The notes: generated by a model from the letters alone, not told the origin. A DNA stretch of 41,194 nucleotides from Gemella bergeri ATCC 700627 (GCF_000469465.1 NZ_KI271820.1:1-41194), one strand, 5' to 3'. Shown: positions 7,200 to 14,377, numbered from the stretch's first letter. Program-made: numbers and translations.

Positions 7200-7565
7200 T
7201 TATTGCCCTAACACAAAAACATCACTAGCTTGTTCTTCTTTTTTATTTCCCCTACTTAAAAATGAAACTTTATTAGCAATTATAGATAATTGATAATGAT
7301 TTACTCCATTCTTATCTTTATAAACATTGTTGCTAAGGCTGCCTACTATATTCAACAAACTACCTTTATCACAATACTTAACCGTATTTTCTGCATTTTT
7401 CCCAAAGGTGGTAAATTCTAGAAATTCTGTTTCATATTCACCATCTTTGTTTTTATAATCAGACTGTACTGCTAATGTTGCTTTTAAATAATTTTTCCCG
7501 CTTTCACTTTCTCTTAATTCCGGTTTTTTCACTAATCTTCCAATCAATATTACTTGATTCAACAT
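7200..7565 (-). CDS. ssb: Short single-stranded DNA-binding protein without the acidic tail
   Basis: A 121-residue OB-fold SSB: MLNQVILIGRLVKKPELR (1-18) and FLEFTTFGKNAENTVKYCDKG (48-68) are characteristic. It binds single-stranded DNA. The housekeeping SSB of Bacilli is about 160-180 residues and ends in an acidic tail with a DDIPF-type tip that recruits repair and replication proteins. This protein ends at about residue 106 of the fold plus a short tail finishing FVLGQ, with no acidic tip. It is therefore more like the short competence SsbB/YwpH type. It stands alone, away from rpsF/rpsR, which also argues that it is a secondary SSB. Confidence 0.85.
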   Translation of the reverse strand: MLNQVILIGRLVKKPELRESESGKNYLKATLAVQSDYKNKDGEYETEFLEFTTFGKNAENTVKYCDKGSLLNIVGSLSNNVYKDKNGVNHYQLSIIANKVSFLSRGNKKEEQASDVFVLGQ

Positions 7566-7617
7566 ATTATTACTCTCCCTTTATTTATTATTAAAATTCT
7601 TATTAGATTTTTTATCA

Positions 7618-7902
7618 CTATTTATGAATTAATGTAACAAATACTTCGCCCGCTTCTAAAAATTCTGCATTAATATAATTATCTCCATCAAAATGCAAAA
7701 CTTTTCCCGGTTCTACTATGTGAATTTCAGTTTCATTAAGATGCACTTCAACTTTTCCCTTAACAACTGTAAATATTACTAATGCTTCCGGATGATTATG
7801 TTTAGGTATTTTATCACCCTTATTCCCAACTTTTTTTACTAATTTAAATCTATCATGTGTTTTTAATAATCCTGCTTCATTAAAAACTGTTCCTATTTGC
7901 AT
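7618..7902 (-). CDS. Small cupin-domain protein
   Basis: A 94-residue single-domain cupin. The first cupin motif is visible as PKHNHPEALVIFTVVKGKVEV (33-53), with His35, His37 and Glu39 as likely metal ligands; the second motif around EPGKVLHFDGD (67-77) is less canonical. Such small cupins bind a metal and either act on or sense small molecules; no substrate can be named. It starts 18 bases after the methyltransferase gene with a ribosome binding site AAGGAG, so the two form an operon. Confidence 0.75.
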   Translation of the reverse strand: MQIGTVFNEAGLLKTHDRFKLVKKVGNKGDKIPKHNHPEALVIFTVVKGKVEVHLNETEIHIVEPGKVLHFDGDNYINAEFLEAGEVFVTLIHK

Positions 7903-7920
7903 TTTAAATACTCCTTTATT

Positions 7921-8682
7921 TTAGTTATTTTTAGTTTTTTTATTGATAAAACAAACGTAGTTCATGTCGTTTTTTAACTTACCAAATGTCGTTTTCATTT
8001 TAATAAATTGTTCTCTGTTCTCAGGTTTTAGCCCATTTTTTACAATTCGTAATGCGTTAACTATGCCCTCATCTTTAATCATTCCTTCCGGAGTCATTAA
8101 AGTAAGTTCACCTTGAAGAGAATTTACAATTTTAAAACCGTGTTCTTCAAATAGTTCCTTCCATTCATCTTTTGGAAGTGGAAAAACATTGATATTTATT
8201 GAATCTGATAATATTTTTCTCGTTTCTTCATAATTATTTATCAATATTATATCGTGTGTTAATAATAATCCTCCCGGTTTTAATACTCTAAAATATTGTT
8301 TAAGTGCTCTTTCTTTACTTTTATTACTGCACATTGTTAGCATCGCTTCATTAATTACATAGTCAAAACTATTATCAGGAAATTCTAAATGAAAAGCATC
8401 TGCACGTAAAAATTTAATATTTTTAAACCCTTTTTTAACCGCCAGTTCTGTTGCTTCTTGTATTGATGCTTTATCAACATCTATCCCTATAAATGCAGTT
8501 GCCGGGTATTTACCGGCTAATTCCAAGAGATTTACTCCCCTATTGCAAGCTACCTCAAGAACACTATCTCCCGGTTTGAAATTAGTATGTGCTAATAAAA
8601 AATTTGTTCCTGTTACTCCTCCGGGCCTTAGTCTTCTTTTACCGAGTTTTTTTAAAAACTGATGACCTTGCTCTTTTTTCAT
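7921..8682 (-). CDS. Class I SAM-dependent methyltransferase
   Basis: A 253-residue Rossmann-fold methyltransferase. SAM-binding motif I is VLEVACNRGVNLLELA (41-56); an acidic residue follows strand 2 (IGIDVDKASI); motif II/III lies near FDYVINEAMLTM and LKPGGLLLTHDII. The family is that of small-molecule methyltransferases (Methyltransf_11/25 type), and the substrate cannot be told. A strong AGGAGG site precedes the ATG. It is the first gene of a two-gene unit with the downstream cupin; pairs of this kind suggest joint action on, or detoxification of, one small molecule, which is inference. Confidence 0.85.
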   Translation of the reverse strand: MKKEQGHQFLKKLGKRRLRPGGVTGTNFLLAHTNFKPGDSVLEVACNRGVNLLELAGKYPATAFIGIDVDKASIQEATELAVKKGFKNIKFLRADAFHLEFPDNSFDYVINEAMLTMCSNKSKERALKQYFRVLKPGGLLLTHDIILINNYEETRKILSDSININVFPLPKDEWKELFEEHGFKIVNSLQGELTLMTPEGMIKDEGIVNALRIVKNGLKPENREQFIKMKTTFGKLKNDMNYVCFINKKTKNN

Positions 8683-9007
8683 AATACTTACCTCCTAATT
8701 AAATTATTATCATCACCCTTTATTTTATAACATATCAATTTATAAAGCCAGTTTTTTATAGCGTTTTACAAAAAATTAGATGTAATAAATAATATATATA
8801 GTAGTATCACCTATGTAAATATTGTTAAACTCCCTTTAATATTTTTATCTCGTAATAATTAACTCTAACAGCCCGTTTAAAAACATTTATAAAATATCTT
8901 AATGTTATTACTTATTTGAATTATAATTATTCCCGATTAGTAAGTTTATTACTACAAAATAAAAAAATTAATACCTAATATGTACTAATTTTTTTACTTA
9001 TTATCTT
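8683..9007 (-). other. Intergenic stretch with one terminator
   Basis: About 325 AT-rich bases between the methyltransferase and DUF1304 genes. An 11-base-pair stem (8964-8974 with 8982-8992, one G-T pair) followed by a long T run on the - strand is a good terminator for the DUF1304 gene. Nothing else convincing was seen in 8700-8957. Confidence 0.6.
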
Positions 9008-9837: not shown

Positions 9838-9866
9838 AGTATAATCCATAATTATTGACTTGTCAA
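9838..9866 (-). promoter_or_regulatory. Promoter of marR-DUF1304
   Basis: On the - strand TTGACA (9861-9866) and TATACT (9838-9843) are spaced by 17 bases. The -35 lies inside the palindrome at 9851-9870, so a bound repressor would block it. Confidence 0.8.
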
Positions 9867-9870
9867 TAAT
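9851..9870. promoter_or_regulatory. Operator 2 for the MarR regulator
   Basis: A perfect inverted repeat with 9-base arms, ATTATTGAC-tt-GTCAATAAT, overlapping the -35 of the marR promoter. The position and the near copy at 9810-9825 make autorepression by MarR the simplest reading. Confidence 0.65.
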
Positions 9871-9873
9871 TTT

Positions 9874-9896
9874 AATGTAAGAAATTTTCTTACATT
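9874..9896. promoter_or_regulatory. Perfect 23-base palindrome upstream of the glpT promoter
   Basis: Arms AATGTAAGAAA and TTTCTTACATT around one central T, 45 bases before the glpT -35. Another half-site (AATGTAAG) follows at 9898-9905. The position suits an activator site for glpT; the nearby NarL-type response regulator is the obvious candidate, by inference only. Confidence 0.6.
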
Positions 9897-9941
9897 CAAT
9901 GTAAGGCTTTTTCTAATTCTCAAAAACTTTGATTTATAGAC

Positions 9942-9970
9942 TTTACAATCGTTTTCTAGTTTTCTATAAT
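9942..9970 (+). promoter_or_regulatory. Promoter of glpT
   Basis: TTTACA (9942-9947) and a perfect TATAAT (9965-9970) with a 17-base spacer, about 46 bases before the ATG; the ribosome binding site AAGGAGG is at 10000-10006. Confidence 0.8.
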
Positions 9971-10016: not shown

Positions 10017-11363
10017 ATGTTTTCATTTCTTAAAGCATCTGCCCCTAAACCCAGAATTGAAAATTCTAGGACGGACGCTGAATATAAAAAACTTCGATGG
10101 CAAGTATTTTCCGGTGTATTTATAGGCTATGCAGCATACTATTTAATAAGAAAGAATTTTTCTCTTGCTATTCCATATTTAATTGATCAATATGGTTATA
10201 CTAAAGCTGATTTAGGTAAAGTTTCTCTTGCTTTATCTCTTGCATACGGATTTAGTAAATTTATTATGGGGAACGTATCGGATAGAAGTAATCCCAAGTA
10301 TTTTATTACTATCGGATTAGTTGCTTCTGCACTTGTTAGTTTAATATTCGGGCTGGTGCCGGCTGTACTTTCATCGCTTACATTTATGATTGTTTTATCT
10401 GCACTTAACGGTTGGTTCCAAGGTATGGGGTATCCTCCGGGAGCTAAAACAATGACAAACTGGTTCTCAACTTCAGAACGTGGAGCTTGGTGGAGTTGGT
10501 GGAATATTTCTCATAATCTTGGTGGAGGACTAATCGGACCTCTTGCACTATTAGGATTATCTATATTCGGTGCTTGGCAATCATTATTTTACTTACCTGC
10601 AATAATTGCAATCATTCTGGCAATTATTATGTTCTATTTAATGAAAGATACTCCGGAATCAGAAGGTTTACCTCCTGTTGATGAATGGAAAGGTGAAAAA
10701 ATTATAGAAAAAATCGAATCTGCTCACACATTATCAGCTAAAGATATTTTCTTTAAATACATTATTAATAATAAATTTTTATGGGCTATAGCTATCGCTA
10801 ATGTGTTCGTATACTTTGTACGCTATGGTATCATTGACTGGGCACCTACATATTTAAAAGAAGTTAAACACTTCTCAGTTGATAAACAAAGTTGGGCTTA
10901 TTTCTTATATGAATATGCCGGTATTTTCGGAATGTTAGCCAGCGGTTATTTGAGCGATAAAGTGTTTAAAGGACACCGTGCTCCACCTATGTTATTATTC
11001 TTAGTTGGTGTACTTATTGCTGTGTTTATTTACTGGAAAAATCCTCCGGGTAATCCGCTTATTGACAATGCTTGTCTTGTAGCTATTGGATTTTTAATCT
11101 ACGGACCTGTTATGATGATCGGCTTACAAGCTGCCGATCTTGTCCCACGTGTCGCTACAGGAACGGCAACAGGGCTTACCGGACTATTTGGGTATCTACT
11201 GGGTTCTGCCAGTGCAGGCTATGTAATGGGTAAACTTGTTGACCTGTTCGGATGGAACGGTGGTTTTTATGCGTTAATTCTTTCTTGTATTTTGGCATTT
11301 ATCTTCATCGGTTTAACACTATTCAAAAAAACTTCTAAACAGTTAGAAACTAAAACAAAATAA
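10017..11363 (+). CDS. glpT: Glycerol-3-phosphate transporter (organophosphate:phosphate antiporter)
   Basis: A 448-residue, 12-helix major facilitator of the organophosphate:Pi antiporter family. It follows E. coli GlpT more closely than UhpT: KLRWQVFSGVFIGYAAYYLI, GWFQGMGYPPGAKT, WAYFLYEYAGIFG and the SDKVFKGHRA loop are GlpT-type. The substrate-binding residues known from GlpT are in place: Arg45 (in LIRKNF), His166 (in SHNLGGG) and Arg269 (in FVRYGI). It should exchange glycerol-3-phosphate for phosphate at the membrane, and such carriers also let fosfomycin in. It is the only confident + strand gene in the window and converges with the sensor operon at 11490-14377. Confidence 0.93.
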   Translation: MFSFLKASAPKPRIENSRTDAEYKKLRWQVFSGVFIGYAAYYLIRKNFSLAIPYLIDQYGYTKADLGKVSLALSLAYGFSKFIMGNVSDRSNPKYFITIGLVASALVSLIFGLVPAVLSSLTFMIVLSALNGWFQGMGYPPGAKTMTNWFSTSERGAWWSWWNISHNLGGGLIGPLALLGLSIFGAWQSLFYLPAIIAIILAIIMFYLMKDTPESEGLPPVDEWKGEKIIEKIESAHTLSAKDIFFKYIINNKFLWAIAIANVFVYFVRYGIIDWAPTYLKEVKHFSVDKQSWAYFLYEYAGIFGMLASGYLSDKVFKGHRAPPMLLFLVGVLIAVFIYWKNPPGNPLIDNACLVAIGFLIYGPVMMIGLQAADLVPRVATGTATGLTGLFGYLLGSASAGYVMGKLVDLFGWNGGFYALILSCILAFIFIGLTLFKKTSKQLETKTK

Positions 11364-11369
11364 TATTAC

Positions 11370-11417
11370 AAAAGCTATAGGTTCGGTATTTGTCCGATTA
11401 TCTATAGCTTTTGTATC
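11370..11417 (+). terminator. Terminator after glpT
   Basis: Stem AAAAGCTATAG (11370-11380) with CTATAGCTTTT (11402-11412), with additional CGG/CCG pairing in the middle, followed by a T-rich run on the + strand. Its symmetry would also stop the converging sensor operon. Confidence 0.8.
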
Positions 11418-11489
11418 TTTTTATACTGTTAAATAAACTTTGTAATTTTCTTTTTATTAGTAAAAGTAACCATTTTATCTATAAATAAT

Positions 11490-12107
11490 TTATAATATTA
11501 TATTATGTTTTAAATATTCCACTAATTCACTTCGTTTCTTTGTATTGGTTTTTTCCATAAGACGCTTTTTATAAGTATCTATCGTTTTTACACTTAAAAA
11601 TAATTTCTCTCCTATTTCTGTTAAAGTATATCCCATTAAAATATATTTTGCCACTTCTTTTTCCCTTTCACTAAGTTCAGATATTGCTTTTTCTTGATAT
11701 AATTCATAAAAAATACCGCCATATTTCTTATTTATATATATTTCACCATTATTCATAACCCTATCTATTGCTGTTAATATTTCCTCATGTGCATTACTTT
11801 TTGTTATATAGCCTCTAGCACCTAATCTTAAAGCTTTTTTTACATAGTTCTTATCTTCATACATACTTAAAATCAAAACTTTTGAATTAATATTCAATTC
11901 AGTTACTTTTTTTAATATGTCATATCCTGTTCCGTCCGGTAATGATATATCACAAATTATTAAGTCATAATTCATATTTTTTATCTTTTCTATTGATTCT
12001 TCTACTGTTGAACAATCTTCTACTACTTCCTTACTATAATGATCTTCCAATAACACTTTAATTCCTATTTTTATCAATTTATGATCATCTATAAGTAATA
12101 TTTTCAT
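11490..12107 (-). CDS. NarL/FixJ-type response regulator
   Basis: A 205-residue two-component response regulator. The receiver domain (1-120) has Asp7/Asp8, the phosphoacceptor Asp53 (in IICDISLPDG) and Lys103. The C-terminal LuxR-type helix-turn-helix is LSEREKEVAKYILMGYTLTE through SVKTIDTYKKRLMEK (about 144-192). It overlaps the end of the kinase gene by 23 bases, so the two are co-translated. Its partner kinase is of the NarX/UhpB type, as expected for this class. The neighbouring glpT is a plausible target; UhpA, the E. coli regulator of uhpT, belongs to the same class. Confidence 0.92.
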   Translation of the reverse strand: MKILLIDDHKLIKIGIKVLLEDHYSKEVVEDCSTVEESIEKIKNMNYDLIICDISLPDGTGYDILKKVTELNINSKVLILSMYEDKNYVKKALRLGARGYITKSNAHEEILTAIDRVMNNGEIYINKKYGGIFYELYQEKAISELSEREKEVAKYILMGYTLTEIGEKLFLSVKTIDTYKKRLMEKTNTKKRSELVEYLKHNIIL

Positions 12108-13473
12108 CAGTTTTTCCCTCCACCATATTTCTTCTAAATTTACATTTTAAAATGGTTGTATATTCTAAATTATTAGCTAATTCAAATTGACCGTCAAAAT
12201 CCAATACTCTTTCTCGAATTCCATAAATTCCTAATCTACCTTCTTTTCTTGCCTTTTCTACTCTATCTAAAGTTAATCCTACTCCATTATCCGAAATCGC
12301 TAGCGATATATAGTCCGAATTAATATAAAATTTTATATCAACTTTTGTAGCCTGTGAATGTTTTCTTATATTTGTTAAGGTTTCTTGAATAATTCTATAA
12401 ATAGTTATATCAAAATTGCTATTTTTTAAATCAATATAATTCGTATCAAATGCAACATCTAAATTGTAGAGTTCTTTGTAATCTTCTATATATTTTAAAA
12501 TTGTTTCTTTTAGACCATGTTCTTCCAAGCTTGCAGGTCTTAAATTCACCGCAATATTTCTTATATTTGTTAAACTTTGTTCTATCTCATTTTTTATCAA
12601 ATTTAACCTTTCTTTCTTTGTTTCATCTTTTTCTTTTTCAATTAAATTACTCAATAGAAACAATAAACTGGCTAAAGATTGACTTACTTCATCATGAAGC
12701 TCTCGTGAAAGCATTGCTCTTTCTTTTTCTTGAACTTTAAAAACTTTATTTAATAAATGATTATTTATTTTTTTATTACTTCTATTACTCTCTACCATTT
12801 CATTTATGGAGTCTACTAACTCATAAAAGTCTTTACTATAGCTGTATTTATTAACTTTATTTTTATAATCACCTTTATTTATTATTTCATTTGTTACTTT
12901 TGTTAAATCTTCGACCGGTCTTTCTATCATTTTTGATATACGATACGCTATTATTAACAAAAATACAAAGACTATAATGTTTAATGCTATTATTTTTATA
13001 AACTCAAGATAAGTTAAATTGTATATTTCTTTTGTGTAAAACCCTATTCTTATATACCCTATATTCACTTCATCTATACCGGAAGTAAAGTCCATAATTT
13101 CTCCATTATTACTTCGATATATTTTAAATTTATCATTCTCCACTTTCACTTCTGATAGCTTCTTAGGTAGTTCTTTTAAGGTTTTTCCTAAAACATTTTT
13201 TTCATTGTCATAAATAATAATATAGGAAACCTCCTTATTAGAACTGAGATTTTGAATTTTTTGATGAATTTCATATGTATTATTCGTTCGTATATCTTCA
13301 GACAGCATACTTGATAATTGATAATATACTTGGTTTATCCTGTTTTTCATAGCGTCTTCTAAAATAATTTTATTATTTTTATATGTATAGGACAAAATTA
13401 TACTGGTATATATAGTATAGATAACAATAAAAAAAATTATAATTTTATTTTTTATTTTTAATTTACCTAACAT
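12085..13473 (-). CDS. Sensor histidine kinase (HisKA_3, NarX/UhpB type)
   Basis: A 462-residue membrane kinase. Two helices (about 10-28 and 158-178) frame an extracellular domain of about 130 residues; a HAMP-like linker (178-235) follows. The dimerisation/phosphoacceptor segment ERAMLSRELHDEVSQSLASL places the phosphorylated His at 260. The ATPase part carries NIRKHSQATKV, SDNGVGL and GRLGIYGIRERV (N, G1 and G2 boxes). It starts 11 bases inside the end of the upstream binding-protein gene and overlaps the response regulator, so the three are one translation-coupled operon. The extracellular domain probably reads the ligand state of the binding protein. Confidence 0.92.
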   Translation of the reverse strand: MLGKLKIKNKIIIFFIVIYTIYTSIILSYTYKNNKIILEDAMKNRINQVYYQLSSMLSEDIRTNNTYEIHQKIQNLSSNKEVSYIIIYDNEKNVLGKTLKELPKKLSEVKVENDKFKIYRSNNGEIMDFTSGIDEVNIGYIRIGFYTKEIYNLTYLEFIKIIALNIIVFVFLLIIAYRISKMIERPVEDLTKVTNEIINKGDYKNKVNKYSYSKDFYELVDSINEMVESNRSNKKINNHLLNKVFKVQEKERAMLSRELHDEVSQSLASLLFLLSNLIEKEKDETKKERLNLIKNEIEQSLTNIRNIAVNLRPASLEEHGLKETILKYIEDYKELYNLDVAFDTNYIDLKNSNFDITIYRIIQETLTNIRKHSQATKVDIKFYINSDYISLAISDNGVGLTLDRVEKARKEGRLGIYGIRERVLDFDGQFELANNLEYTTILKCKFRRNMVEGKTDENITYR

Positions 13474-14377
13474 CTTTAACCTCTTCTAATAGAGTCGGAT
13501 AGTCTTCTATTTTTGTATCTTCAAAATTTTTAATTTGCAATCTTTCTAATACGGCTTTTATGGTGCTATCTTTATCTATATTAAATAAAATATTCTTTAA
13601 TTTTTCTTTATCCTTATAATTTTTGTGCGTTACTACCGGTCCAGTTGCAACTTCCGGAAATATTTTTATTACTTTTATATTATCTTTTATGTTAGAATCT
13701 TCATTTGCTAAATTTTGCAATGCCCAGTCATCTATACTTGCTGCGTAAACCGCTCCGCTAAGCACCTGTTTTATAGAATCTTCATGACTGTATGTAAAAT
13801 AATATTTATTATTAAAAAATTTATTAATGGTTGTATTTTGTTGTTTAAAGTAATTATTCACTGCCAAATAACCTGAATAACTATAATTATCTACAAAAGC
13901 AAAATTTTTATCTTTTAATTCTTCAAAATCTTCTATTTCGGAATCTTTTCTGGTAATAATTATCGGATGATAATATGCTTTTCCTCTGTTCGGTCTGGCT
14001 ATTAATTCTAAATCTTTTTTATCTTCATATAAAGAATAAGCACCCGTCGATAAAAAGGCTATATCTATTTGATTATTTTTTAATAAAGTATTTATTTCTT
14101 TATAACTTTTTTTCTGAACCAATTTAACTTTTTTGTTTAACTTTTTACCGATATAACTTACCAATTCTTTTTCAGATACGTAACCTTTATTTCCTCCGGT
14201 TACAGATATAATTCCTATTGTTACTATATCCTCAGGTATTGAATAATTTTCATTAATATTCACCGTATCTTTAAAATCTATATATTCTGTATTGGTTTTA
14301 TTATTTAAAGAGGTTATTAAGAATAACAGCAGCAATGCTACAACACTATATACAAAATATAAAATCTTTTTACTCAT
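13463..14377 (-). CDS. Membrane-anchored PhnD-like binding protein, sensory
   Basis: A 304-residue protein with one N-terminal helix (about 5-23) and a periplasmic-binding-protein fold of the PhnD (phosphate/phosphite/phosphonate) type: DIVTIGIISVTGG, IDIAFLSTGAYSLY, YYHPIIITRKDS, FAFVDNYSYSGYLAV and ATGPVVTHKNY follow the family pattern. It has no lipobox Cys, so it is anchored by its helix. No ABC permease or ATPase lies nearby; instead it is coupled to a histidine kinase and response regulator. This is the layout of HptA-HptS-HptR of S. aureus, where a similar protein works with the kinase to sense hexose phosphate. Strong ribosome binding site GGAGGG. Confidence 0.85.
   Translation of the reverse strand: MSKKILYFVYSVVALLLLFLITSLNNKTNTEYIDFKDTVNINENYSIPEDIVTIGIISVTGGNKGYVSEKELVSYIGKKLNKKVKLVQKKSYKEINTLLKNNQIDIAFLSTGAYSLYEDKKDLELIARPNRGKAYYHPIIITRKDSEIEDFEELKDKNFAFVDNYSYSGYLAVNNYFKQQNTTINKFFNNKYYFTYSHEDSIKQVLSGAVYAASIDDWALQNLANEDSNIKDNIKVIKIFPEVATGPVVTHKNYKDKEKLKNILFNIDKDSTIKAVLERLQIKNFEDTKIEDYPTLLEEVKDVR

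Follow-up and report, generated by a model that had tools for sequence, protein, structure and literature searches.

What does a PhnD-type binding protein do beside glpT when no ABC-transporter gene adjoins it? The question is raised by a 41,194-nucleotide stretch of the Gemella bergeri ATCC 700627 genome (hereafter the window), in which such a protein is encoded with a histidine kinase and a response regulator. Among sensors of external phosphate esters, the transporter-like receptor UhpC and HptA of Staphylococcus aureus are the best known, and the original prediction held that this locus mixes an Hpt-type sensor with a Uhp-type kinase and regulator. Our analysis recovered glpT and the trio as predicted, with no ABC-transporter gene beside the binding protein (Table 1), but placed the nearest relatives of the sensor elsewhere, with ArrX and AioX rather than HptA. 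With a probability of about 0.78, we read the trio as a branch of the ArrXSR-type three-component systems that would sense organophosphates and activate phosphate-ester antiporters of the OPA family.

The trio genes are co-directional on the minus strand (14377-11490) and face glpT. The binding-protein frame overlaps the kinase frame by 11 bp, and the kinase frame overlaps that of the regulator by 23 bp, in keeping with the translational coupling that had been proposed. Because the trio and glpT are convergent, with a stem-loop separating their 3' ends, control of glpT has to be exerted at its distal promoter (about 9942-9970). The neighbours are glpT, marR, DUF1304, alkD, and pyrG, and no arsenic genes occur at the Gemella locus. 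An alignment search of genome contigs found the same locus in two named Gemella contigs; a single-sequence contig search found no relatives, near records possibly lying outside the search set.

Table 1. Features of the glpT-trio locus, numbered from the first nucleotide of the window.
Feature	Position	Strand	Evidence or remark
Operator site 1, TGTAAGAAATTTTCTTACA, inverted repeat upstream of glpT	9876-9894	+	Kept in 7/7 glpT-bearing Gemella
Operator site 2, TGTAAGGCTTTTTCTAATT	9900-9918	+	Phylogenetic footprint in 7/7 Gemella
glpT promoter, TTTACA - 17 bp - TATAAT	9942-9970	+	Conserved in 7/7 Gemella
glpT, OPA-family glycerol-3-phosphate:phosphate antiporter, predicted target gene	10017-11363	+	MFS_1 match
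Stem-loop AAAAGCTATAG...CTATAGCTTTT, probable terminator, just after glpT	11370-11420		Direct sequence reading
Response regulator, NarL/FixJ type, receiver and LuxR-type HTH	11490-12107	-	PF00072 (Response_reg), PF00196 (GerE/LuxR)
Sensor histidine kinase, HisKA_3 class	12085-13473	-	PF07730 (HisKA_3), PF02518 (HATPase_c)
PhnD/ArrX-type binding protein, predicted ligand sensor	13463-14377	-	PF12974, 170 bits

Domain searches agreed with the assignment of the kinase and regulator to the NarX/NarL-like class, finding HisKA_3 and LuxR/GerE domains. The kinase carries an extracytoplasmic Cache/PDC-like domain (about residues 30-160) between two membrane helices, and in a low-confidence model (pLDDT 53) this outer domain matched WalK/Cache domains with Z scores of 9-11.5. 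The sensor was modelled with a pLDDT of 62, and fold matches of both models serve as support only. Residue H260 of the kinase is invariant in Gemella, as is D53 of the regulator in seven Gemella genomes.

Seven of nine Gemella genomes carry glpT next to the trio; the other two lack all of these genes, and there marR directly adjoins alkD. Since the genes are thus kept or missing together, their pairing is not due to chance. Six genomes of the sister genus contain neither. The predicted link between the trio and glpT is upheld by this synteny and co-occurrence, by trios beside OPA carriers elsewhere, and by an operator shared with carrier genes of other families. Across Gemella, identity to the G. 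bergeri locus is 94-100% for glpT and 58-98% for the trio. Against most other Gemella species, glpT is 94-95% identical, and the adjoining trio only 58-73%.

The region upstream of glpT contains a paired conserved operator, TGTARGNNNTTTTCYKACA. When the upstream regions of seven Gemella genomes were aligned, it appeared as a TGTAAG-N7-CTTACA footprint within otherwise variable sequence; a further copy, of the same orientation but more degenerate, lies 24 bp downstream of site 1 and is followed by the promoter. Site 1 is the only exact operator match in the genome. Scanning the genus with at most one mismatch found the glpT promoter in all seven trio-bearing genomes and perfect copies upstream of a second, PgtP-like carrier in two of these seven, and little else; one trio-less genome gave a single imperfect match, and the other gave none. 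Operator-like matches elsewhere in the Gemella genome were taken as chance, the one examined (C27:5579) lying inside a tsaB-like gene. A cre-like sequence across the glpT promoter spacer is not claimed here, its reading being weak and its core varying between species. Between marR and glpT there is also a MarR-type inverted repeat, TATTGACTTGTCAATA (9853-9868), a similar copy of which lies near marR. Its conservation across Gemella, including genomes without glpT, makes it a probable element of marR.

The carrier itself is 55% identical to E. coli GlpT (1pw4) and keeps all of the substrate-site residues Arg45, Lys80, His165, and Arg269. Two of the observations that count against our preferred reading concern this carrier and its substrate: (i) the Gemella carrier scores 600 bits against TIGR00712 (glpT), slightly below the curated cut-off of 632.55, although GlpT models are its best-scoring by far, and (ii) a search of all nine Gemella genomes found no GlpD/GlpO C-terminal domain (PF16901), which makes oxidation of imported glycerol-3-phosphate by the usual route improbable. 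The second, PgtP-like OPA carrier occurs in genomes G002 and G004 (L045:7188-8525, minus strand; L046, near 7444-8769, plus strand), scores 708 of 750 bits, and has no adjoining trio. In both genomes a perfect glpT operator copy precedes it, making it a likely second member of the regulon.

Among solved structures, the best relatives of the binding protein are ArrX (1e-31) and AioX (1e-23), followed by PtxB (4e-10) and PhnD (4e-8), and ArrX is also the top fold match of its low-confidence model (Z 15.8; pLDDT 62). The Gemella protein is probably membrane-anchored, because all seven Gemella orthologues have an N-terminal membrane helix and no lipobox cysteine; relatives in some other Bacilli are, in contrast, lipoprotein-like. 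Five AioX residues common to PhnD (Y88, Y131, S161, S163, and H192) line one side of the oxyanion site (PMC5908839), and all five are kept in Gemella, as Y92, Y136, S166, S168, and H198. These positions support a phosphoryl-type pocket. The position of AioX Cys106, which bonds arsenite, is occupied by Ser110 in Gemella and by Ser in all 13 carrier-linked sensors, whereas 24 of 25 molybdoenzyme-linked sensors, ArrX and AioX among them, have Cys; the Fisher value calculated for this split takes no account of kinship among the sequences. At the position of AioX Pro240, whose PhnD counterpart Asp205 touches the ligand tail, the carrier-linked group has mostly Gly (Gly246 in Gemella), or Ser. The two substitutions lie towards the variable end of the ligand and would suit a phosphate ester, a larger ligand; our best guess is glycerol-3-phosphate or another phosphate ester.

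The trio is no peculiarity of Gemella. In surveys covering 398 Bacilli and 398 Bacillota genomes, with 44 loci inspected, the module of binding protein, HisKA_3 kinase, and NarL regulator proved widespread, and in several Bacillota families the same branch adjoins OPA carriers, among them GlpT and PgtP. The majority of trio loci adjoin arsenate/tetrathionate-type molybdoenzyme genes and nine adjoin OPA carriers, proportions that are not unbiased frequencies, as the Bacillota query included carrier-linked sensors. The adjoining carriers are PgtP at three loci (L078, L080, and L081) and GlpT at two (L121 and L122), in each case over the curated cut-off, the latter two being clostridial-type carriers that exceed TIGR00712; other OPA carriers adjoin the trio at L123, L124, L126, and L131.

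The 13 binding proteins linked to carriers formed one clade in a 45-row tree (support 97/93; 96% of bootstrap trees), a group that an earlier 16-row sensor tree had left unresolved. The carrier-linked kinases likewise formed one clade (100/99), in a tree whose Gemella branch is long and whose bootstrap did not fully converge. By these phylogenies, carrier-linked sensors and kinases each stand apart from those linked to arsenic or molybdoenzyme genes. Other arrangements were also seen. Genome G032 has three separate XSR trios (L079, L082, and L083) near different molybdoenzyme genes, and the trio at L086:3091-6567 lies near a gene read by eye as an NhaC-like antiporter, rather than near a carrier or molybdoenzyme. 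The trio at L147:5978-9290, sister to the carrier-linked clade, lacks Cys106 and the Ser signature alike, and its surroundings contain no carrier or molybdoenzyme; another ligand class is possible there.

An operator matrix trained on twelve Gemella sites only was run on the nine non-Gemella carrier-linked loci (12-13 kb each). In all nine, the best match of the entire locus lay 70-310 bp upstream of the carrier start, a score that shuffled upstream regions attained in 0 to 8 of 500 trials; at the remaining trio loci the best match was usually weaker, and it was intragenic in 25 of 29. Seven trio loci fetched later, which are not independent, several being from one genus, all had an adjoining carrier and a sensor with the Ser-Thr-Gly-Ala-Tyr signature, and six had the operator upstream of the carrier. 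At L177, a trio with a carrier, no clear operator was found upstream of the carrier, which counts against our reading. An operator-like sequence, TGTAGGGGTTTTCCTTACA, is also present at an Arr-linked locus, between the molybdoenzyme genes and the regulator gene (L077:2890-2910, minus strand). This site suggests that the operator predates the organophosphate branch, and that branch may not be alone in using it, a further point against our reading.

These data bear on three other readings of the trio. It could sense inorganic phosphate or its absence, with glpT induced as a phosphorus source or exchanger; phosphate is indeed exchanged by GlpT. The AioX pocket also binds phosphate (PMC5908839), and the relatives PtxB and PhnD, to go by the titles of their structures, bind phosphite or phosphate. 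We nevertheless think such a sensor unlikely, as the branch tracks several kinds of OPA carrier (GlpT, PgtP, and other), and as its tail-facing positions shift together, the change at Cys106 in all members and that at Pro240 in most, which would suit, though it does not prove, a larger ligand. Closest solved kinship and an identical module order would instead favour an arsenic-oxyanion sensor like ArrXSR or AioXSR, lying beside glpT by accident. This we hold to be very improbable, for every carrier-linked member has replaced Cys106, the Gemella locus is devoid of arsenic genes, sensor and kinase fall into separate clades, and the operator sits at carrier genes.

The third reading, an HptASR-type hexose-phosphate sensor with a swapped regulator, draws on a real resemblance: in S. 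aureus, too, a secreted sensor, a kinase, and a regulator are encoded alongside an organophosphate antiporter whose promoter is preceded by an operator (PMC6291074, PMC8774646). HptA, however, is described as a putative metal-binding protein, and comparing the Gemella sensor with the PDB by sequence, profile, and fold did not bring it up, though such an absence is no proof; the regulator here is of the NarL type (LuxR/GerE), not the AraC type; and genomes of the same order in the class survey (Staphylococcales, judging by kinship) gave no match to the family profile at 1e-20. We give this reading hardly any weight, slightly less than the arsenic one.

Under the organophosphate-sensing reading, we infer the ligand, the transfer of the signal, the binding of regulator to operator, and the direction of control as follows. 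The membrane-anchored binding protein would capture a small extracellular phosphate ester, the most likely being glycerol-3-phosphate or a closely related substrate of the neighbouring transporter, and, once loaded, would contact the outer Cache-like domain of the HisKA_3 kinase. The kinase would then autophosphorylate at His260 and pass the phosphate to Asp53 of the NarL-type regulator, which would bind the paired TGTARGNNNTTTTCYKACA sites, centred about 92 and 68 bp before the inferred transcription start, and activate glpT. GlpT would import the ester in exchange for phosphate.

With less confidence, though still on balance in its favour, we extend this proposal to a widespread, undescribed Bacillota family in which PhnD/ArrX-type sensors have turned from arsenic oxyanions to organophosphates and control GlpT/PgtP-type carriers through TGTARG-N7-CYKACA, each branch tuned to the ester of its partner carrier. 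Searches of the open-access literature for PhnD-type sensors accompanying glpT or pgtP in Firmicutes found no description; an earlier one may exist elsewhere. If correct, the proposal would add a separate, Bacillota-wide solution to phosphate-ester sensing, akin to the arsenic sensors, and the predicted operator would make its regulons readable from sequence. As GlpT is one of the main routes by which fosfomycin enters cells, the trio would influence how susceptible Gemella and other members are to the drug. The Ser/Cys and Gly/Pro differences in the pocket, moreover, provide a testable case of a binding-protein sensor changing its ligand.

Among known systems, UhpABC-uhpT of Escherichia coli resembles the Gemella locus in that a NarL/UhpA-type regulator and a HisKA_3-type kinase control an OPA carrier, but its receptor is the transporter-like UhpC, where the Gemella trio uses a binding protein. 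HptASR-uhpT of S. aureus is likewise a three-part extracellular phosphate-ester sensor by an antiporter gene, and there too the operator precedes the promoter: the reach of HptR on uhpT, -67 to -96, is similar to the distance of the Gemella sites (PMC6291074). It differs in regulator class and in responding to hexose phosphate rather than serving a GlpT-type carrier. The two systems would work alike, and kinship between HptA and the Gemella binding protein was not detected by sequence, profile, or fold. The arsenite-oxidation systems AioXSR and ArxXSR have the same binding-protein fold and five pocket residues in common with the Gemella sensor; unlike the trio, they have AtoC-type regulators with an AAA+ domain and the arsenite-binding Cys106, and they control arsenite oxidase. 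Closest is ArrXSR of arsenate respiration (e.g., in Chrysiogenes arsenatis), which also unites a PhnD/AioX-fold binding protein, a sensor kinase, and a FixJ-type HTH regulator in one module, and whose putative ArrR site, tcaggtttttccctga, resembles the Gemella operator core (Badilla et al. 2018, PMC5908839). The original prediction is supported, as far as sequence goes, in the link to glpT and in the function class, but its comparison needs correction, since the architecture pre-exists in ArrXSR. ArrXSR targets a molybdoenzyme, the Gemella trio, by our reading, a carrier; the Gemella branch also has Ser for the conserved Cys, its own sensor and kinase clades, and no arsenic genes. Because Cys106 and an arsenic molybdoenzyme gene, which define the arsenic members, are both missing, the Gemella trio is best classified as a system of the XSR kind that forms a distinct branch.
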